64,000 nucleotides of DNA from Halorubrum californiense DSM 19288 (GCF_000336875.1 NZ_AOJK01000073.1:53410-117409), one strand, 5' to 3'. Positions 46,069 to 55,401 are shown, counted from the stretch's first letter. Translations and numbers: made by a program. The notes: a model not told the origin generated them from the sequence alone.

Positions 46069-47847
46069 TCAGAGCAGCAGGGAGGCGAACAGCGCGACCC
46101 CGGCGGCGAGCGTCAGGAACAGCACGCTCCGACCGATACCGGCGCGGATCTCCGTATCGACGCCGGCCCGCGAGAGCGTCTCGCGTGGACTGGTCGCGGT
46201 CCGCATCGTCGCGCCCGCCAGCGCCATCGTCGCGCGGTCGACGGCCGCCCACAGTTCAGTGACGCCCCACACCGAACCGCGCCCGAGGTAGAAGGCGGCC
46301 GGGAAGAGGACGGCGTCGACGTCGGGCATCCGGTGGGCGAGCCAGCCGAGCGGGCGCTTCAGCGCGAAGAAGCCGGCGAAGCCGGCGACCAGCAGCGCCG
46401 CGCTCTCGACCAAGTGGCTCCGGCTGTACGGCTTGAAGTACACCTCGTCACTGAGGATGAGGTCAGTGAACGGCATCAGCTCGATCAGCTGGGTGTAGAA
46501 GACGCCGAAAAAGACGCACGCGCCGGCGGCCAACAGCATTCCGACCGTCTGGAACGGGGTAGCGTCGTCCGGCGACAGCGTCGCCGAACCGTGGAAGAAC
46601 ATGTAGTAGCCCAGCTTGATGAACGACATGAACGTCCCAACGCCGCCGAGGACGAGCAGCCACCAGAGCAGCCCGCTGTCCAGCAGAAGGACGTACTCGT
46701 GGACCTCGTGGGCGGAGTCGAGTACCATCCCCTTCGAGATGAAGCCGTTGAAGCCGGGCACCGCCGTAATCGAGGCCGCGCCGACGAGGTAGACGAGGAA
46801 GGTGACCGGCATCACGCGCCAGAGCCCGCCCATCTCGCGGATGTCCTCGACGCCGGTCCGGTAGACGACGACGCCGACCGCCATGAACAGGAGGCTCTTG
46901 TAGAGGACGTTGTTGAACAGGTGCGCGAAGCCGCCGACGACGGCGAACTCGCCGACCGCCGTGGCGAGGCCGAACCCGGCGAGCATGTAGCCGAGCTGGG
47001 CCTGGATGTGGTACGACAGCAGCCGGCGCGGGTCGTACTGGAGCAGCGCGAAGAACGCACCGTAGACGGCCATGAACCCGCCGAGGTAGGCGAGCCACAT
47101 GCCGCCCTCGGGGAACGCACGGTACATGACGTAGGCGGCGGTCTTCGTGGTGAACACCGAGAGGAACACCGACGCCGCGACGTGCGGGCGCGGGTAGGTG
47201 TCCGGCAGCCAGCTGTGCAGGAAGATGAACCCGCAGTTGATCCCGATGCCGACCGCCGCGAGGACCGCCGCGGCCGGGTGGATCCCGACCGTTTCCGAGA
47301 ACAGGAACGTCCCCGCGTTCACGAAGTGGACGACGACGGCGGCGAGCAGGATGGTCCCGCCGGTCCCGTGGAACAGCGCGTAGCGGTACCCCGCGCGTAC
47401 CGCCGCCCCGCCGTGCTGCCAGACGAGCAGCGTCGAGGTGACGGCGGTCAGCTCCCAGAAGAAGATCAGGGTGAGCCAGTCGCCGGCGTAGATCGTCCCC
47501 AGGGTCGTGGCGACGTAGGTCAGCGCGAACGCGGTCACCCACGTCGGCGCCTCGCTGCCGTAGGCGTACAGCACCGCGGCCGTCGCGAGGAACCCGACGA
47601 CGACCCCCATCAGCAGCGAGAACTGGTCGACGTTGAAGAACACGACGTCGAAGCCGAGGAACGTCGTCGCGAGGTGTGCGCCCGTGCCGCCGTCGCCGAG
47701 CAGCACCGCCTGCGCGAAGGTGAACGCCGTCGCGAGCGCGGCGACCGCGTGTCCCGCCCGCCGCGGCAGCGCCAGCACCGCGAGCGCCGCGAACGCGAGC
47801 AGGATGTACGGCGGAATCGACGCGAGGAGGCTCGTGGGCACCGTCAC
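46069..47847 (-). CDS. Mrp/NuoL-family antiporter-like subunit (last gene of operon)
   Basis: 592 residues with about 14 membrane helices. The GTG start at 47847 overlaps the upstream stop by GTGA. FFWELTAVTSTLLVW carries E132 and TTKTAAYVMYR K235, both typical of MrpA/MrpD/NuoL. The helix-7 lysine is absent: GIGINCGFIFLHSWLP has N204 where K stands in GxxxKxxxxPxHxWLP. FNGFISKGMVLDSA keeps the helix-12 region lysine. FFWELT resembles the MrpA N-terminal part more than MrpD, so it may stand in for the missing N-terminal half of MrpA. Subunit identity is less sure than family. Confidence 0.85.
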   Translation of the reverse strand: MTVPTSLLASIPPYILLAFAALAVLALPRRAGHAVAALATAFTFAQAVLLGDGGTGAHLATTFLGFDVVFFNVDQFSLLMGVVVGFLATAAVLYAYGSEAPTWVTAFALTYVATTLGTIYAGDWLTLIFFWELTAVTSTLLVWQHGGAAVRAGYRYALFHGTGGTILLAAVVVHFVNAGTFLFSETVGIHPAAAVLAAVGIGINCGFIFLHSWLPDTYPRPHVAASVFLSVFTTKTAAYVMYRAFPEGGMWLAYLGGFMAVYGAFFALLQYDPRRLLSYHIQAQLGYMLAGFGLATAVGEFAVVGGFAHLFNNVLYKSLLFMAVGVVVYRTGVEDIREMGGLWRVMPVTFLVYLVGAASITAVPGFNGFISKGMVLDSAHEVHEYVLLLDSGLLWWLLVLGGVGTFMSFIKLGYYMFFHGSATLSPDDATPFQTVGMLLAAGACVFFGVFYTQLIELMPFTDLILSDEVYFKPYSRSHLVESAALLVAGFAGFFALKRPLGWLAHRMPDVDAVLFPAAFYLGRGSVWGVTELWAAVDRATMALAGATMRTATSPRETLSRAGVDTEIRAGIGRSVLFLTLAAGVALFASLLL

Positions 47848-50057
47848 GGGCGCACCACCCCCTCGGGAAGCCGCGTGTCGACGATGAGCTCGATCAGCTC
47901 GAGGAAGCCCATCTCGTAGGGGATCACGCCGAGTAGCACCGCGAGCGTCATCGCGGTGAGGATCGGCCCGAGCGTGAACCACGTCGACTCGCGCCCGCGG
48001 AGGGCGTCGAGCCCGGCGATGTGTTCCCAGCCGCCAGCCGGCGGCCCGCCGTGGTGGCCGTCGTCGTGCGTGTCAGCGTCGTGACCGCCGTGCGGGTCGT
48101 CGTCGTGGTCGCCGTGCGGGTCGTCTGGGCCCCGATCCTCGTCGGAGGCGCGGTCCGCTTCGGCGTCGGCCGCACTCAGGTCAGACACACTCTCGTCGGA
48201 CGCGTCACCGCGTCCGGGTCCGAACGGCACGTCCGCGTCGGAGGGGCGCTGGTCGACCGCGTAATCGCCCGTGTCGACGCGCTCGGCCGGCTCCGAGAAG
48301 TCGCGCTCGCTCGTGTCGAAGTCCGGTCGGACGACGCCGTCCTCGTCGGTCGGCAGGTCGTCGAGGTCGGCGTCCGGCACCGCGGACTCGTCGACGCCGT
48401 CCGCGTCGGGCGTCGAGTCGTCGCCGCCGCCCGCGTCCGCGACGATGTCGTCCACGCCGTCGGCGTTCTCGGCTTCACCGTTCTCGTCTTCGGCGTTGTC
48501 TTCGTTCGCGTCGTCACCTGCGCGGCCCCCGTCGGTCGCCGCGTCGTCACCTGCGCGGCCCCCGTCGGTCGCCGCGTCGTCACCTGCGCGGCCCCCGTCG
48601 GTCGCCGCAGCGATCGACCGCGACTCGCCGCCGAGCGGGAAGTCGACGAGGGGCTTCGCGTCGTGGGCGTCCTCCGCCTCGAAGAAGGCGGTGTAGATGA
48701 CCGGCCAGAAGTACGCGATGTTGAGCACGCCGGAGAGGAGCAGCGCGCCGGCGAGGTAGTACGCGACCGGGGTGAAGTTCATCCCCATCCGCACGCCGCC
48801 GATCAGCATGTAATACTTGCTGACGAAGCCGGCGAGCAGCGGTATCCCCGCCATTCCGAGGGAGGCGATGGTGAAGGCCCCCATCGTCAGCGGCATCCGT
48901 TTGCCGATCCCCGCCATCTGCGAGATGTAGTCAGTGTGGGTAGACACGTGGATGTTGCCCGCGCAGAAGAACAGGGTGAGCTTCATGAACGCGTGCGCCG
49001 GGATGTGAAGCAGCGCGCCCACGAGCCCGTACCAGCCGAACAGCCCGAGCCCGAGGATGATGTAGCTCAGCTGGCTGATCGTCGAGTAGGCGAGCCGGCG
49101 CTTCAGGTGGTCCTTCCGGAGCGCGATGAGCGAGGCCGCCGTGAGCGTGATCGCGCCGATAGTCGAGAGGACGAGGCCGGCAGTGAACCCGAACGGAAGC
49201 GAGAGGTCGAAGACGAGTTCGGGACCGAACACGTCGAGGACGACCCGCGAGACGCCGAACGCGCCGGACTTGACGACCGCGACCGCGTGGAGCAACCCGG
49301 AGACCGGCGTCGGCGCCACCATCGCCTCGGGGAGCCACTGGTGGAGCGGCATGATTCCGGCCTTCACGCCGAACCCGATCGCGAGCAGGAAGAAAGCCAG
49401 CATCGCCAGCCCGGGGTCGGCGTTCGCGAGTTCCGCGATCCCGCCCGCGGTGAAGTCGACGGAGCCGGCGAGCAGGTAGACCAGCGCGGTGCCCGCCAAG
49501 ACGAGGACGCCGCCACCGAACATCGTGTACGCGAGGTACTTGCGGCCGGCCGAGCGCGCCTCGGCCGTCTCGTCGTGTGCGACGAGCGGGTACGTCGCGA
49601 TCGACAGCAGCTCGTAGAAGACGAATATCGTCACGAGGTTGCCCGCGAACGCGATCCCCATCGTCGCGGCCAGCGACACCGCGAACGCCGCGAAGTACCG
49701 GGTCTGGTTCGGTTCGTCAAGCCCGCGCATGTAGCCGATGCTGTAGAAGGAGGTGATTATCCACAGCCCGCTCGCGAGGAACGCGAACAGCATGCCGAGC
49801 GCGTCCGCGCGGAGCGCGAACTCGATCGGCGCGCCGATCCCGGGGAGGAACGCCCCGAGCGTCCACTCGAAGGTCGTGCCGTCGAGGACCGCCGGCAGCA
49901 TCGACGCGACGATGCCGAACTTCACGAGCGACGCGACGAGCGTCCACCCCTCGCGGACGTTCGGCGAGCGGTACGACGCGACGATGAGGAACGCCGCGAC
50001 GAACGAGACGAGAACCGCCAGTAGGGGTCGTGGGTCTGAGAGTACAACGTCTGTCAT
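47844..50057 (-). CDS. mnhD: MnhD/MrpD-like antiporter subunit with long acidic/His-rich insert
   Basis: 737 residues, against about 500 for the family. Residues 1-480 are the membrane core with proton-path residues E149 (FVFYELLS), K232 (GFGVKAGIMPLHQWLPEAM), KS at 263-264 (VAVVKSGAF) and K414 (FVSKYYM). Residues about 484-675 are an inserted hydrophilic stretch: three AATDGGRAGDD repeats, then acidic, ending in a His-rich run (PHGDHDDDPHGGHD). The last helix (about 690-735) follows. ATGA overlap with the upstream gene at 50054-50057, GTGA overlap with the next. The insert probably lies in a loop on one membrane face. Confidence 0.92.
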   Translation of the reverse strand: MTDVVLSDPRPLLAVLVSFVAAFLIVASYRSPNVREGWTLVASLVKFGIVASMLPAVLDGTTFEWTLGAFLPGIGAPIEFALRADALGMLFAFLASGLWIITSFYSIGYMRGLDEPNQTRYFAAFAVSLAATMGIAFAGNLVTIFVFYELLSIATYPLVAHDETAEARSAGRKYLAYTMFGGGVLVLAGTALVYLLAGSVDFTAGGIAELANADPGLAMLAFFLLAIGFGVKAGIMPLHQWLPEAMVAPTPVSGLLHAVAVVKSGAFGVSRVVLDVFGPELVFDLSLPFGFTAGLVLSTIGAITLTAASLIALRKDHLKRRLAYSTISQLSYIILGLGLFGWYGLVGALLHIPAHAFMKLTLFFCAGNIHVSTHTDYISQMAGIGKRMPLTMGAFTIASLGMAGIPLLAGFVSKYYMLIGGVRMGMNFTPVAYYLAGALLLSGVLNIAYFWPVIYTAFFEAEDAHDAKPLVDFPLGGESRSIAAATDGGRAGDDAATDGGRAGDDAATDGGRAGDDANEDNAEDENGEAENADGVDDIVADAGGGDDSTPDADGVDESAVPDADLDDLPTDEDGVVRPDFDTSERDFSEPAERVDTGDYAVDQRPSDADVPFGPGRGDASDESVSDLSAADAEADRASDEDRGPDDPHGDHDDDPHGGHDADTHDDGHHGGPPAGGWEHIAGLDALRGRESTWFTLGPILTAMTLAVLLGVIPYEMGFLELIELIVDTRLPEGVVRP
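48508..48606. repeat. Three perfect 33-bp tandem repeats inside mnhD
   Basis: The unit GCGTCGTCACCTGCGCGGCC plus 13 bases occurs at 48508-48540, 48541-48573 and 48574-48606 without a mismatch. It encodes an 11-residue AATDGGRAGDD motif on the minus strand. Length is a multiple of three, so copy number can change without breaking the frame. Confidence 0.95.
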
Positions 50058-51685
50058 GCGAACACCTCCGCGAGGAACGGGCCGAACCACTCCGCGAGCG
50101 CGAAGCCGCCGAAGCCGAGCGCGACCGTCGCCAGCACCGCCAGTCCGAGCGCGAGCAACGGCGCCGTCGGGACTCGGTCGGGAACGAGCCACGACCGCGG
50201 AGCGCCCTCGACGGGCGCCGGAAGGCCGTCAGCCGTCTTCGCCGGTGATTCGTTGCGACCACCGACCGCGGCGGCGTCCCCGCCGTCGGTGGCCGCGTCG
50301 TCGTCACCGCGGTCCCCGAATATTTCGCCGTGGTCGCCGGGGAGCCCGGCGCCGGCGAAGTAGAACCGCTCGATCAGGCGCGCGACGTACGACAGCGTGA
50401 ACAGCGTGCTGACGAATATCGCCGCCGCGACCGCGATCCCGACCGCGCCGCCGCCGGCGAGGCCGGCGTCGACCGCCCCGACGCCGATGTACCACTTGCC
50501 GAGGAAGCCGATCGAGGGCGGGATCCCGACGAGTCCGAGGCCGAGGACGGCGACCGCACCGGACGTGTACGGCGCCGCGCGGGCGGCGCTCGCGAGGTCG
50601 CTCATCTGCCGGCTGCCGTAGCCGAGCGCCAGCAGCCCGATCCCGAGGAAGAGGCCGAACTTCATGATCCCGTGACCGATCAGGTGGACGATCCCGCCGA
50701 GCAGCGCCGTCTCGTTCGCGAGCGCGACGGCCGCGCCGATCATCCCGAACTGCGCGACCGAGGAGTACGCGAACATCCGCTTGAGGTTCGACTGCATCGC
50801 GGCGAGCGCAGAGCCCGCGACGATCGAGACTGTCGAGACGACGAGCAGCGCGGTCGCGATCCCCTCGTTCGCCGCGAGGAAATCGACGGTGAACACGGTG
50901 TAGGTCACGCGGATCAGCGCGTAGGCGCTCGTCGTCGAGACCAGCGCCGCGACGACCGTCGTGACCGAGTCCGGCGCGCGCTGGTAGGCGTCGGGCTGCC
51001 ACGAGTGGACCGGGAAGATGGCGATCTTCAGCGCCAGCCCGGTCACGATAAACGCGTAGCTCGCGCGGACGAGCGGGTCGCCGTAGCCGGCCTGCGCGAC
51101 GATCTGCGCCTGGACGTCGAGCATGTTCAGCGTCCCCGTCGCGAGGAAGACGTAGCCGACGCCGAGCAGGTACAGCGAGGCGCCGACAGTGCCGACGACG
51201 AGGTACTTCAGCGAGGCGTACGCGCTCGCGCCCGACCGGTCCGAGGCGATGAGCGCGTACGTCGTCAGCCCGGTGATCTCGAGGAACACGAACAGGTTGA
51301 ACAGGTCCCCGGTGAGCACCATCCCGACGAGGCCGCCGACCAGCAGGAGGTACGCGCTGTAGAACGGGTTCCCGCGGGGGCCGGCCACGCGAGCGAACGC
51401 GAGCGTCGCGACCGAGACCGCGGCCACGAGAAGCAGCACCGCTACCGACAGCCGGTCGGCGACGAGTTCGATTCCCACCGGCGGGAGGAAGCCGCCGAGG
51501 GCGTGGTCGAACGGGCCGTTGACGACGACCTCCGCGGCGATCGCTGCCGCGATTCCGGCCACCGCGGTCGTGCCGACAGCGGCGATCGGCCACCCGACGC
51601 GGTCGTACCGCAGACCGAGCGCCAGCGGCAGCGTCGCCGCCACGATGGGGACGACGACCGCGAGCGGTAGGAGGACGTCAATCAT
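50054..51685 (-). CDS. mnhD: MnhD/MrpD-like antiporter subunit
   Basis: 543 residues, about 14 helices. LFNLFVFLEITGLTTYALIASD carries the helix-5 Glu; GLALKIAIFPVHSWQPDAYQ the helix-7 Lys; QSNLKRMFAYSSVAQFGMIG the helix-10 region; SIGFLGKWYIGVGAV the helix-12 Lys. All main proton-path residues are retained, unlike the last paralogue. Acidic loop near 450-490 (GDRGDDDAATDGGDAA). The ATG at 51685 overlaps the mnhC stop by 8 bases; a GTG at 51694 is an alternative. The ATGA link follows to the next gene. Confidence 0.93.
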   Translation of the reverse strand: MIDVLLPLAVVVPIVAATLPLALGLRYDRVGWPIAAVGTTAVAGIAAAIAAEVVVNGPFDHALGGFLPPVGIELVADRLSVAVLLLVAAVSVATLAFARVAGPRGNPFYSAYLLLVGGLVGMVLTGDLFNLFVFLEITGLTTYALIASDRSGASAYASLKYLVVGTVGASLYLLGVGYVFLATGTLNMLDVQAQIVAQAGYGDPLVRASYAFIVTGLALKIAIFPVHSWQPDAYQRAPDSVTTVVAALVSTTSAYALIRVTYTVFTVDFLAANEGIATALLVVSTVSIVAGSALAAMQSNLKRMFAYSSVAQFGMIGAAVALANETALLGGIVHLIGHGIMKFGLFLGIGLLALGYGSRQMSDLASAARAAPYTSGAVAVLGLGLVGIPPSIGFLGKWYIGVGAVDAGLAGGGAVGIAVAAAIFVSTLFTLSYVARLIERFYFAGAGLPGDHGEIFGDRGDDDAATDGGDAAAVGGRNESPAKTADGLPAPVEGAPRSWLVPDRVPTAPLLALGLAVLATVALGFGGFALAEWFGPFLAEVFA

Positions 51686-52178
51686 CCGTCTCACCTCCCG
51701 CGTCGGGCGCGCCGGCAGATCCGTCGGCGGCGGGCTCCCCGTCGGTGCCCGCCGCGTTCGGCGAGCGCCGGGCGGGGATGGAGCCCTCGTCGCGGAGCAG
51801 TTCGCGGAGCGTGTCGGTCCGTAGCGTGCCGTACTCGTCGTATATTCGGATACACAGCGCGAGCCCGACCGCGGTGAGGCTCACGCCGACGACGATGGCG
51901 GTGAGCACGAGGACGTGCGGCAGCGGGCTCACGTAGAGCCCGCCCTCCGGACCCCCGATCGGGACGATGGGGATCGATCCGCCCTCGACGTACGCCGAGG
52001 CGATGAACAGCAGGAATATCGCCGTCTGGAACAGGTTGAGTCCGATTATCTTCTTCACGAGGTTCGGGTTCGCGATCATCATGTAGAGGCCGATACACAA
52101 CAGCAGTGCGAACGCGACGTACGCGTGTCTCGTCGCGAGGATATCGACCGCGCCACCGGCCGATGCGAGCGCGAACAC
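51678..52178 (-). CDS. mnhC: Na+/H+ antiporter subunit C (MnhC/MrpC, NuoK-like)
   Basis: 166 residues from GTG 52178, its G shared with the upstream TAG (TAGTG overlap). Three helices (HAYVAFALLLCIGLYMM, LNLFQTAIFLLFIASAYVEGG, HVLVLTAIVVGVSLTAVGLAL) and IYDEYGTLR match MrpC/NuoK, with NLFQTA and the membrane-end Glu of SAYVEGG. Acidic C-terminal tail. It overlaps mnhD by eight bases. Confidence 0.92.
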   Translation of the reverse strand: MFALASAGGAVDILATRHAYVAFALLLCIGLYMMIANPNLVKKIIGLNLFQTAIFLLFIASAYVEGGSIPIVPIGGPEGGLYVSPLPHVLVLTAIVVGVSLTAVGLALCIRIYDEYGTLRTDTLRELLRDEGSIPARRSPNAAGTDGEPAADGSAGAPDAGGETDD

Positions 52179-52894
52179 TACGGCTCACCTCCGTCGGCCG
52201 CGGCCGGTCCCCCAGGGTTCGACTCCCCGTCGAGGGACTCGGCGTCGGTCGGCTCGCCGTCACCGTCGGTGCCGTCGCCGACCTCGTCGTCGAAGGCGTC
52301 CGCGTCGGCGAACCCGCCCGCGTCGCTGAACCCCTTCGCGAGGACGAAGAACAGCCCCATGAGTACGCCGGCAACGATCGTCCCGATCCCGAGGATCTCG
52401 ACGCCCTCCATCCCATACTTGACCGGGTCCGGGATCGGGAGCAGTTCGTACTGCAGGAACGCGCCGCCGAGCGCGACCGGGACCAGCCCGATGCCGGCGA
52501 AGACGAGCGCACCGCCGACGGCGAGCGCGACGACGACGGTGTTCGCGAGCCACTGCCGGGTCGCCTCGATCCCGAACGCGAACGCGATCATGAACACGAC
52601 CGCGGCCACGATCGCGCCGCCCTGGAACCCGCCGCCGGGCGAGCCGCCGCCGTGGAAGGTGACGAACAGGCCGTAGGTGAACGCGAACGGCGTGACGATC
52701 TTCACCGTCGACATGATGACCTGACTCTCCGTGTACGGGGTCCCCTGCCGACGCTCCGAGTCGAGTCGCCCGTCGCTTCGCGGCGGCCGGTCGCGACCAA
52801 ATCCGCCGTCGGTGGCGGGCTTCGAGACGGCGTCGGTGTCGGCGGCGTCAGTGTCTGCGGCGTCAGTGTCGACGCCGGAGTCGGAGCCGCTCAT
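52178..52894 (-). CDS. mnhB: Na+/H+ antiporter subunit B (MnhB/MrpB domain)
   Basis: 238 residues from ATG 52894. The first 60 residues are a disordered, Asp-rich extension (DTDAADTDAADTDAVS, from a microrepeat). Then a four-helix MnhB domain: IMSTVKIVTPFAFTYGLFVTFHGGGSPGGGFQGGAIVAAVVF, where SPGGGFQGG is the family signature. An acidic tail follows. ATGA overlap with the preceding gene at 52891-52894. A usual member would be about 150 residues, so the ends are halophile additions. Confidence 0.92.
   Translation of the reverse strand: MSGSDSGVDTDAADTDAADTDAVSKPATDGGFGRDRPPRSDGRLDSERRQGTPYTESQVIMSTVKIVTPFAFTYGLFVTFHGGGSPGGGFQGGAIVAAVVFMIAFAFGIEATRQWLANTVVVALAVGGALVFAGIGLVPVALGGAFLQYELLPIPDPVKYGMEGVEILGIGTIVAGVLMGLFFVLAKGFSDAGGFADADAFDDEVGDGTDGDGEPTDAESLDGESNPGGPAAADGGEP
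52827..52871. repeat. 15-bp microrepeats in mnhB N-terminus
   Basis: GCGGCGTCAGTGTC units at 52842-52856 and 52857-52871, preceded by a variant at 52827-52841, encode the DTDAA repeats. In frame, so length can change without breaking the gene. Confidence 0.85.
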
Positions 52895-53481
52895 GCGAAC
52901 ACCTCCCTGTGGAGGACGATGAGGGCGGCGATCCCGGCCGCGAACACGACGACCGCCTCGCCGAACGTGTCGAACCCGCGGAACGCCGCCAGCACGGCCA
53001 TCACCGTGTTCTCGACGTGCGTCTCCGCGTACGTCTCGGCGATGTACCACTGAGTCACGTCCGGGTTCGACCAGATCGGCGCGTCCGCTGAACCCACCGC
53101 GGGAATGTCGCCCATCGTGAGCATCAGCCCGGCGAACAACAGGCCGGCCGCGCCCGCCGCCGGCAGGTTCACCGACTCGAATGCGGCCTCGTGGTCGAGC
53201 CGGGTCGTCTTCGCGAGCGTGAGGAGCAGCAGCACGGTCGTCACGCCGGCGGAGATGGCGGCCTCCGTCATCGCCACGTCCGGCGCGCGGTAGAACGTGT
53301 ACAGCGCGGCCATCCCGAGGCTGTAGGCGCCGAAGATGATCACGGCCGCGAGCACGTCGCGCGCCAGCGCGGTGAACAGCGCGGTCAACACGACGAAGAC
53401 GAACAGGCTCGCCTCGATGGCGGTGACCTGCGCGACCACCGGCGCGCCGAGGGGGCCGGCCGACGCGAGCGCGCCGGTCAT
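52891..53481 (-). CDS. MrpA C-terminal-type subunit (DUF4040/MbhD-like)
   Basis: 196 residues. SLFVFVVLTALFTALARDVLAAVIIFGAYSLGMAALYTFYRAPDVAMTEAAISAGV matches the DUF4040/MbhD domain found in the C-terminal part of MrpA or as a separate subunit. Further hydrophobic stretches (GAAGLLFAGLMLTMG, FGEAVVVFAAGIAALIVLH) resemble the adjoining MbhE-like part. ATGA overlaps on both sides (52891-52894 and 53478-53481). No N-terminal NuoL-like half exists in this gene, so the operon has a split MrpA. Confidence 0.88.
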   Translation of the reverse strand: MTGALASAGPLGAPVVAQVTAIEASLFVFVVLTALFTALARDVLAAVIIFGAYSLGMAALYTFYRAPDVAMTEAAISAGVTTVLLLLTLAKTTRLDHEAAFESVNLPAAGAAGLLFAGLMLTMGDIPAVGSADAPIWSNPDVTQWYIAETYAETHVENTVMAVLAAFRGFDTFGEAVVVFAAGIAALIVLHREVFA

Positions 53482-53813
53482 CGGCGGTCGTCCCCCTCGA
53501 TCCACGGCACGATTCCCTCCTCGAAGGCGGCCCGGGCGATGGCGTGGGCCGCGGTCGGGTTCGTCACGAAGATGAAGAACAGCAAGAGGACCGACTTGAA
53601 TCCGGCCCCCGCCAGTCCGACGGTGATGGCGACGGCCGCGAGGCCGAACCCCGCGCCGAGCGTGTCGGCCTGCGAGGCGGTGTGTGCCCGCGAGTACACG
53701 TCCGGCAGGCGGAGCACGCCTACCATCGAGACGAACGAGAAGAACAGCCCGAGCAGCGTGAGCGCGACCACGAGCCACACGCGGGCCGTCTCCGTCGCGG
53801 CGGCGGCGGTCAC
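53478..53813 (-). CDS. mnhG: Na+/H+ antiporter subunit G (MnhG/MrpG)
   Basis: 111 residues from GTG 53813. Three helices; VVALTLLGLFFSFVSMVGVLRLPDVYSRAHTASQADTLGAG contains the MrpG signature RLPDxxxRxHA. Ends with acidic EGIVPWIEGDDRR. GTGA overlap with mnhF (53810-53813) and ATGA with the following gene. Confidence 0.93.
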   Translation of the reverse strand: MTAAAATETARVWLVVALTLLGLFFSFVSMVGVLRLPDVYSRAHTASQADTLGAGFGLAAVAITVGLAGAGFKSVLLLFFIFVTNPTAAHAIARAAFEEGIVPWIEGDDRR

Positions 53814-54115
53814 AGCACACCACCCCGCTCGACGGTGAACTTCGAGATGGCGATGGCCATCAGGAAGTTGAGCAGCGCGTACACTAAGGCGATGTCGAGG
53901 AACGTCGGCTCGCCGAGCGCCGCGCCGAGGATGGCGAGGATGACGACGGTGTTCGTCCCGAGGACGTTCACCGCCAACACCCGGTCTTGCATCGTCGGCC
54001 CGACGACCGCGCGGTAGAGCATGCCGACCGCGAGGACGGCGAAGCCGGCGGCCGCGACGAGCAGGAAGTCGCCGAGGGTGTAGCCGGCCGCGAGCGAGGC
54101 GTCCACGAGGCTCAT
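53810..54115 (-). CDS. mnhF: Na+/H+ antiporter subunit F (MnhF/MrpF)
   Basis: 101 residues, three helices. GFAVLAVGMLYRAVVGPTMQDRVLAVNVLGTNTVVILAILGAALGEPTFLDIALVYALLNFL includes the family's PTxxDRVLAxN motif and the conserved Asp of FLDIALVYALL. ATGA overlap with mnhE at 54112-54115. Confidence 0.93.
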   Translation of the reverse strand: MSLVDASLAAGYTLGDFLLVAAAGFAVLAVGMLYRAVVGPTMQDRVLAVNVLGTNTVVILAILGAALGEPTFLDIALVYALLNFLMAIAISKFTVERGGVL

Positions 54116-55401
54116 CGGTCGGTCACCTCGTCGGAGGCATCGTCGCTACTGATGCTACCGTCGCTCGCGTCGGCCGCGTCGATTCCGTCAGCCGCGTCGC
54201 TCGCGTCGACAACTCCGCCGGCGGCGGCGGCGATGGGCAGTTCCTCGGTGGCGTCGGGGCCTTGGAGGATCGCGACATCGTCGCGCTCGCGGGGGGTCGG
54301 GAGCCGCGCCGACCGGCGACCGTAGTAGATGAAGCGCGTCCACCGTTCGAGGGAACCGTCGAACAGCCCCTCGCGGGCCCACGGGACGAGCGAGTGGACG
54401 TAGAGGTCGCTGTCGCGGGCGCGGACGGTGAGCGTTCCGGGCGTCAGCGTGATCGAGTTCGCGAGCGTCATCAGCGGGAGCCCGCTCCCGACGATCACCC
54501 GCATCCGGTTCATCGTCGGCTCGATCGGCATCCGGGGATCGAGGATGACGCGCGCGACGACGAGGTTCGCCTTCAGGATCTCGAACAGCAGCACGGGGAC
54601 GTATATCAGCCCGCGGAGGATCCGCATCGGGGTCCGCGGAATCGCCGGGTTCGAATCGAGGCTCACCCGCGAGAGGGTGATCGAGACGATCGCGGCGGTC
54701 GCGACGCCCGTCACGGCGTCGAACCAGTAGGTCGGGTTGCCCAACAGGAGGTAAAAGGCCAGCGACAGCCCGAACAGCGCCACGAACCGGCCGGTGGTGG
54801 CCTCGGTCCGAAACCGCTCGCGTCGCGTCGGCCGGTCGACCGGGGCGGTCTCGACCGACAGCGGCGTGTTCGAGAGGGCGAACTCCAGCGGCTGGAGCAG
54901 CGTCGTGTTGCCCACCGGGGTGTACTCGGGGTCGAGGACGACGCGGTCGGCGTCGTTCGCCTCGGCGTACTCCGCGAGGACGCGGACGTAGTCGTCGGCG
55001 CCGAACAGGTAGTCGTCGGCGCCGAGCACCGCCGTGACGACCTCGACGTCCGGGGCGGCGGGCGCCTCGGAGTCGTCGAGGTCGGCGGTCGTCCACGCCG
55101 CGGCGCGTTCGAGCACGCGCTCTGCGGCGGCGGCCCGCTCCTCGCTCTCCGGGTCCCCGTTCCGCCACGAGGCGATCTCGACGAGGTGGATCGCGGACGC
55201 GCCGTCGGCCGCTGCGGCCTCCGCGACGTGGGCGACCGTCGAGCGCAGCGTGGAACTCGGCTCGACCGGAACGATGACCGCGCCGGCCGACCCCGACGCC
55301 CCCGTCGCGTCCGAATCGGCGGCAGCGGCGGCGGCGTCCGGCGCGTCGCCGTCGGGGTCGTCCCCGCCGGACGCCGGGTCGGCGTCAGCCACCCACCACA
55401 C
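54112..55401 (-). CDS. mnhE: MnhE/MrpE antiporter subunit fused to N-terminal UspA-like domain
   Basis: 429 residues, against 160-170 for a plain MrpE. Residues about 40-190 are a universal-stress-protein-like Rossmann domain (VIVPVEPSSTLRSTVAHVAEAA and YAEANDADRVVLDPEYTPVGN). The MrpE domain follows at about 205-360: FVALFGLSLAFYLLLGNPTYW, FEILKANLVVARVILDPRMP (the MrpE signature), SITLTPGTLTV, VHSLVP. The C-terminal 60 residues are an acidic tail. Start GTG 55401; another GTG at 55392 is possible. It is the first gene of the operon. A CGGATA-containing motif sits in the upstream region (55402-55612). Confidence 0.9.
   Translation of the reverse strand: MWWVADADPASGGDDPDGDAPDAAAAAADSDATGASGSAGAVIVPVEPSSTLRSTVAHVAEAAAADGASAIHLVEIASWRNGDPESEERAAAAERVLERAAAWTTADLDDSEAPAAPDVEVVTAVLGADDYLFGADDYVRVLAEYAEANDADRVVLDPEYTPVGNTTLLQPLEFALSNTPLSVETAPVDRPTRRERFRTEATTGRFVALFGLSLAFYLLLGNPTYWFDAVTGVATAAIVSITLSRVSLDSNPAIPRTPMRILRGLIYVPVLLFEILKANLVVARVILDPRMPIEPTMNRMRVIVGSGLPLMTLANSITLTPGTLTVRARDSDLYVHSLVPWAREGLFDGSLERWTRFIYYGRRSARLPTPRERDDVAILQGPDATEELPIAAAAGGVVDASDAADGIDAADASDGSISSDDASDEVTDR

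Follow-up and report, generated by a model that had tools for sequence, protein, structure and literature searches.

Among the major sodium/proton exchangers of bacteria and archaea are the Mrp antiporters. The closest described relatives of the protein treated here are the MrpD/MnhD subunits of Bacillus pseudofirmus (7qru_D) and Anoxybacillus (6z16_D) and the family NF005561. They share with it a 14-helix fold, the catalytic Glu and Lys residues and the gene-cluster context, but bacterial MrpD has about 490 residues, and the Halorubrum protein adds about 209 disordered residues between transmembrane helices TM13 and TM14. Parts of this addition resemble other described systems. ZnT7, of the CDF family, is a cation/proton antiporter with a long, disordered, cytosolic His-rich loop that binds two Zn2+ (PMC10409766); the MrpD fold is unrelated to it, the Halorubrum loop holds a second conserved, non-His peptide, and metal binding at MrpD is only putative. 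Short linear motifs are short conserved peptides in a fast-evolving disordered background that recur in unrelated proteins; the MrpD module described below differs in its length, about 35 residues when complete, and in having apparently moved by DNA copying, and its partner is putative. The amino-acid tandem repeats of archaeal Borg elements are in-frame repeats that give disordered regions in membrane proteins (PMC9879509); the Halorubrum repeat is not on a Borg, and one unit type is dispersed among several genes.

The window, a 64,000-nucleotide stretch of Halorubrum californiense DSM 19288 (GCF_000336875.1, NZ_AOJK01000073.1:53410-117409), carries on its minus strand a nine-gene mrp/mnh cluster in the order E-F-G-B1-B-C-D1-D2-D3 (46069-55401), and the gene set is identical in the relatives examined, one of which has an incomplete region in the fetched stretch. 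The second of the three D-like genes, D2 (47844-50057, minus strand), encodes 737 residues; a sequence-only reading of the window had given this ORF, its coordinates and the run PHGDHDDDPHGGHD (residues 647-660), all of which we find as it described them. A 667-aa plus-strand ORF opposite the gene was rejected as a shadow of the high-GC reading frame. The D2 protein scores 939.6 bits against NF005561 ('putative monovalent cation/H+ antiporter subunit D'; curated cut-off 718) and has both the PF00361 antiporter domain and the 14-TM fold. All 78 homologues keep E149, K232, K263 and K414, which correspond to the Glu of TM5 and the Lys of TM7, TM8 and TM12. Two AlphaFold2 models were made, the first built on 78 homologues and the second on an 18-sequence haloarchaeal alignment; pLDDT exceeds 90 for most of the membrane core. 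Structure alignment with the B. pseudofirmus subunit (7qru_D) gives Z 45.7 and rmsd 2.4 over 480 aligned residues, pairing model residues 7-733 with chain residues 1-484. On the evidence of sequence and model, D2 is an MrpD-type subunit with an intact antiporter core. In the MrpE protein of the cluster (54112-55401), a soluble domain of about 200 residues at the N-terminus precedes the MNHE domain; the Pfam Usp family matches the N-terminal domain only below threshold (E 0.7), and it was detected in the clusters of 19 of 20 relatives, the remaining cluster being incomplete at MrpE.

The insert (residues 472-680; 48018-48644, minus strand), delimited by pLDDT and by the orthologue alignment, lies between TM13 (residues 431-458; 48684-48767, minus), which enters the cytosol in the model, and TM14 (residues 693-711; 47925-47981, minus). 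The first model gives nearly all of residues 472-668 a pLDDT below 50, in agreement with the second. With 67 D+E, 11 K+R and 8 H, the insert is as acidic as the earlier reading had it, and it does stand ahead of the last helix. Searched by itself, the insert matches no Pfam family at E<=1. After TM13 come a conserved exit DAKPLVDFPLGGESRS, a repeat of AATDGGRAGDD, a variable acidic stretch, a conserved module (residues 560-612), a variable acidic and His-containing stretch, and then a His cluster with HHGGPPAGGW before TM14. In Mrp complexes the loop after TM2 is a beta-hairpin on the periplasmic side (PMC7419157). Because of this landmark and helix parity the TM13-TM14 loop is expected on the cytosolic side, and any sensing by it would therefore concern the cell interior.

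Among intact Halorubrum orthologues the insert is found in 41 of the 41 aligned, with lengths of 176-245 aa and 3-19 His; it is thus neither confined to one strain nor devoid of His outside it, and a strain-specific artefact or frameshift was discarded on the same evidence. Across haloarchaea its length runs from roughly 40 to 245 residues (about 40 to 230 within the family), and the named loci that have it include Natrialba, Natrinema, Halobellus, Halohasta, Halosimplex, Halolamina and others. The D1 and D3 paralogues, read by eye, are without a comparable insert. The claim that such a domain is absent from typical MrpD proteins also stands: in bacterial and non-halophilic archaeal homologues (about 50% core identity) the insert is absent or only a few residues long, and their total beyond the matched core is only about 26-115 residues, mainly TM14. 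Short His-rich loops occur at the equivalent place in a handful of non-haloarchaeal homologues (L137, L173, L176, L187 and L192). An MrpD match is present in 51 of 52 Halorubrum genomes; 44 have the long form and seven a divergent protein (56-68% identical) whose insert, where read, is shorter and contains His. The divergent genomes are G010, G019, G028, G038, G043 (L072-L076), G034 and G049; in G043 the entire mrp cluster is divergent, as if replaced, and a PH-domain protein discussed below still has the module. A second MrpD copy was seen in three Halorubrum genomes (G008:C4:94510, G027:C20:3227 and G047:C13:3103), with equal score in each, as if on a common mobile segment.

The most constrained part of the insert is a block without His that the sequence-only reading did not mention. 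The module (residues 560-612; 48222-48380, minus strand) has the core GVVRPDF...YAVDQRPSD (residues 574-607) and a consensus of about 35 residues, GVVRPDFxxSxRDFSEPAERVDTGxYAVDxxPSD. In 820 pairwise comparisons of the 41 Halorubrum orthologues its pN/pS is 0.168, against 0.183 for the membrane core, 0.841 for the first acidic stretch and 0.733 for the acidic/His stretch that flank it, both of these close to neutrality; the juxtamembrane part has 0.389. The module has no PDB or phage match. Its end, YAVDQRPSD (residues 599-607; 48237-48263, minus), is the part conserved across haloarchaeal families. A degenerate DNA pattern of the YAVDxxPSD type, run against 167 genomes of the family, hits mostly MrpD loci, usually once per genome outside Halorubrum but twice within it, and the reversed control pattern hits nothing. 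In a class-wide run of 292 genomes the motif appears in several further families, and of 20 hits from other families that were fetched, 19 proved to be orthologues of MrpD, several of which have a longer form such as LGRPDFGGETTDRDYSDPAPLVDGEYAVDRNPSD. The one other fetched hit is an endonuclease/exonuclease/phosphatase protein ending in YAVDRYPSDHFPV; a relation to it was rejected as chance similarity, because this end aligns with the SDHxPV motif that the family itself has at its C-terminus. Hits of the form YAVDGTP[CT]D, which arise from the degenerate codon WSN and belong to a different protein, presumably SurE, were set aside.

Several haloarchaeal clades lack the module, as do Halorubrum genomes whose MrpD is divergent (about 65% identical), and it is therefore not essential to antiport. 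On the MrpD tree YAVDxxPSD changes state at least four times and occurs in separate clades; these parsimony counts give no direction and do not separate loss from regain. A different conserved peptide, HGYADDHEGQGP, was observed at the same loop position in four MrpD proteins that do not have YAVDxxPSD (L097, L110, L127 and L128), and a shorter form of it in two more of the same haloarchaeal clade (L112 and L129).

A search of the window's own genome with the module returned one other protein (E 5e-17, 65% identity), a bPH_2 (PF03703) membrane protein encoded about 50 kb away, which carries the second copy in its acidic C-terminal tail. This protein is unrelated to MrpD and is not encoded in the mrp cluster. 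The module was found in 52 of 52 Halorubrum genomes, and the best 30 loci, when fetched, were all bPH_2 protein tails, two of them with QRASD replacing QxPSD. The whole module in a bPH_2 tail is confined to Halorubrum; among sister-genus PH orthologues (58-64% identical for the nearest) the tails read have no module, three more distant ones being left out. Two genomes, G038 and G045, have a PH copy that terminates in the MrpD-type VPFGP. In G045 the 3' part of the PH copy and the genome's own MrpD copy are identical at 36 of 39 bp, against 19-31 of 39 in other genomes; segment exchange between the PH and MrpD loci is seen in one pair of genomes. The simplest reading of these sequences is that the PH gene acquired the module by copying in the ancestor of Halorubrum and that the two copies exchanged sequence later. 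A direction from MrpD to PH is suggested because the MrpD copy is the more widely distributed.

We propose that, where an ordinary MrpD-type subunit has a short turn between TM13 and TM14, this one has a cytosolic, intrinsically disordered loop. The acidic parts of the loop, expanded by repeats, would be a flexible, salt-compatible tether presenting a docking peptide, [RQ]PDF...RD[FY]S[ED]PAxx[VI]x(T)GxYAVDxxPSD, to a putative soluble or peripheral partner. The Halorubrum bPH_2 protein, with the same peptide, would recruit the same putative partner, and both proteins would place the peptide at the cytosolic membrane face. The His cluster with GGPPxGGW would form a second, juxtamembrane element, which may change charge near cytosolic pH or bind a divalent metal, beside the antiporter half-channel. 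A docking peptide is suggested because a constrained peptide in fast-evolving disorder recurs in an unrelated membrane protein; the features used to recognize short linear motifs are found here in the disordered region, in a pN/pS of 0.17 against 0.84 and 0.73, and in the recurrence in the bPH_2 tail. Taken as a whole, this account seems to us evenly poised between right and wrong; against it, cluster gene content is alike with and without the motif, a result that also led us to drop the motif as a marker of cluster composition. A fuller version is possible rather than probable: the module may be a hitherto undescribed docking peptide of archaea, recognized by a conserved cytosolic regulator in haloarchaea, ancestral in the MrpD of several families and copied in-frame as a DNA segment into the bPH_2 gene in the Halorubrum ancestor, which would bring antiporter and PH protein under one partner.

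The module might instead be a gate peptide that works within the molecule or the complex, binding MrpD itself or an adjacent subunit of Mrp, such as MrpE at its N-terminal domain. Residues 571-580 reach a pLDDT of 61 in the first AlphaFold2 model, and the soluble MrpE domain is present across clusters, both of which favour such a gate. The second model, however, gives only 46 for these residues, the MrpE domain is present also where the motif is absent, and the same peptide occurs in the bPH_2 protein, encoded outside the cluster. We consider a gate peptide unlikely.

Searches of the open-access literature returned no description of the insert or the module, most subscription papers being outside their scope, so that novelty is provisional; open-access papers on His-rich Mrp sequences, haloarchaeal short linear motifs and Halorubrum minisatellites had nothing on the insert, and no account of the regulation of haloarchaeal Mrp antiporters was found in open-access papers. 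The protein is thus of a known kind and its loop, provisionally, new. Set in a disordered loop, a conserved peptide offers a practical starting point, since it can serve as bait for a regulator; its copying between two unrelated genes, from one disordered region to the other, also lets the origin and spread of a prokaryotic linear motif be traced.

At the membrane end of the insert, the His cluster (residues 648-669, 7 His; 48051-48116, minus strand) runs into the juxtamembrane HHGGPPAGGW (residues 668-677; 48027-48056, minus). GGPP[APT] is present in 41 of 41 Halorubrum orthologues, and His accounts for 16.1% of the 45 residues that precede GGPP. The figure is 0.31% for the acidic stretch upstream, 0.35% for the acidic tail of the bPH_2 protein and 1.8% for the core. 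Individual His residues do not keep their positions, and their number is low in some haloarchaea (L090-L092 have 1-3 in the last 50 residues). A pH response or metal binding is plausible and compatible with a conserved cluster, and each can be put forward as the function of the loop itself. By analogy with ZnT7, the His-rich end could be the functional core, a cytosolic loop that binds divalent metal and regulates or feeds the transporter. This is favoured by the His density, 16.1% against 0.3% in comparable acidic regions, and by a few bacterial homologues (L137, L173, L176 and L187) that have a comparable short, His-rich loop in this position. Against it, the loop has no Cys, the spacing of its His is not fixed, MrpD lies outside the CDF family, and the His count ranges from 3 to 19 within the genus; such a core is improbable. 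Alternatively, the acidic and His-containing loop could, with no metal, collect protons as an antenna, or sense pH, where MrpD opens to the cytosol. It would sit by the C-terminal half-channel, and His beside many carboxylates would titrate near neutral pH, but the conserved YAVDxxPSD module would be left unexplained, and we regard an antenna or sensor, as the whole function, as doubtful.

The sequence-only reading had also allowed that the insert is simply a halophile spacer, and this fits the two variable acidic stretches; with pN/pS of 0.84 and 0.73 they are best explained as a tether. It fails for residues 560-612 (0.17), for the conserved His cluster and for GGPPxGGW. As an explanation of the whole insert, repeat slippage would have generated low-complexity, acidic sequence, which is tolerated where the cytosol is rich in salt. 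Halophile proteins are commonly acidic in sequence, the stretches evolve fast, and the insert opens with a feature that the earlier reading did not describe, a 33-bp tandem repeat of 3.1 identical copies encoding (AATDGGRAGDD)3 (48507-48608, minus strand), whose copy number varies from about 1 to 4 in orthologues. A spacer does not, however, account for a block of about 50 residues constrained like the membrane core, for which it is already refuted, for a motif that recurs across families and in a second protein, or for a His density about fifty times that of comparable acidic regions, and as an explanation of the whole we consider it very unlikely.

The 33-bp unit, coding for DGGRAxDD, is also dispersed in several other genes of the same genome (C20:31000, C25:122289, C36:55496, C36:188871, C36:190988 and C72:124168-124323), in the same frame where the frame was read. 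Seven of eight distinct units use the rare Ala codon GCA, which makes up 2.6% of the Ala codons of the window's genes (P ~6e-11); this points to DNA copying. The unit was found in seven of seven Halorubrum genomes tested and in none of three from other genera, and in two of the seven (G049 and G001) most hits are without the GCA codon.
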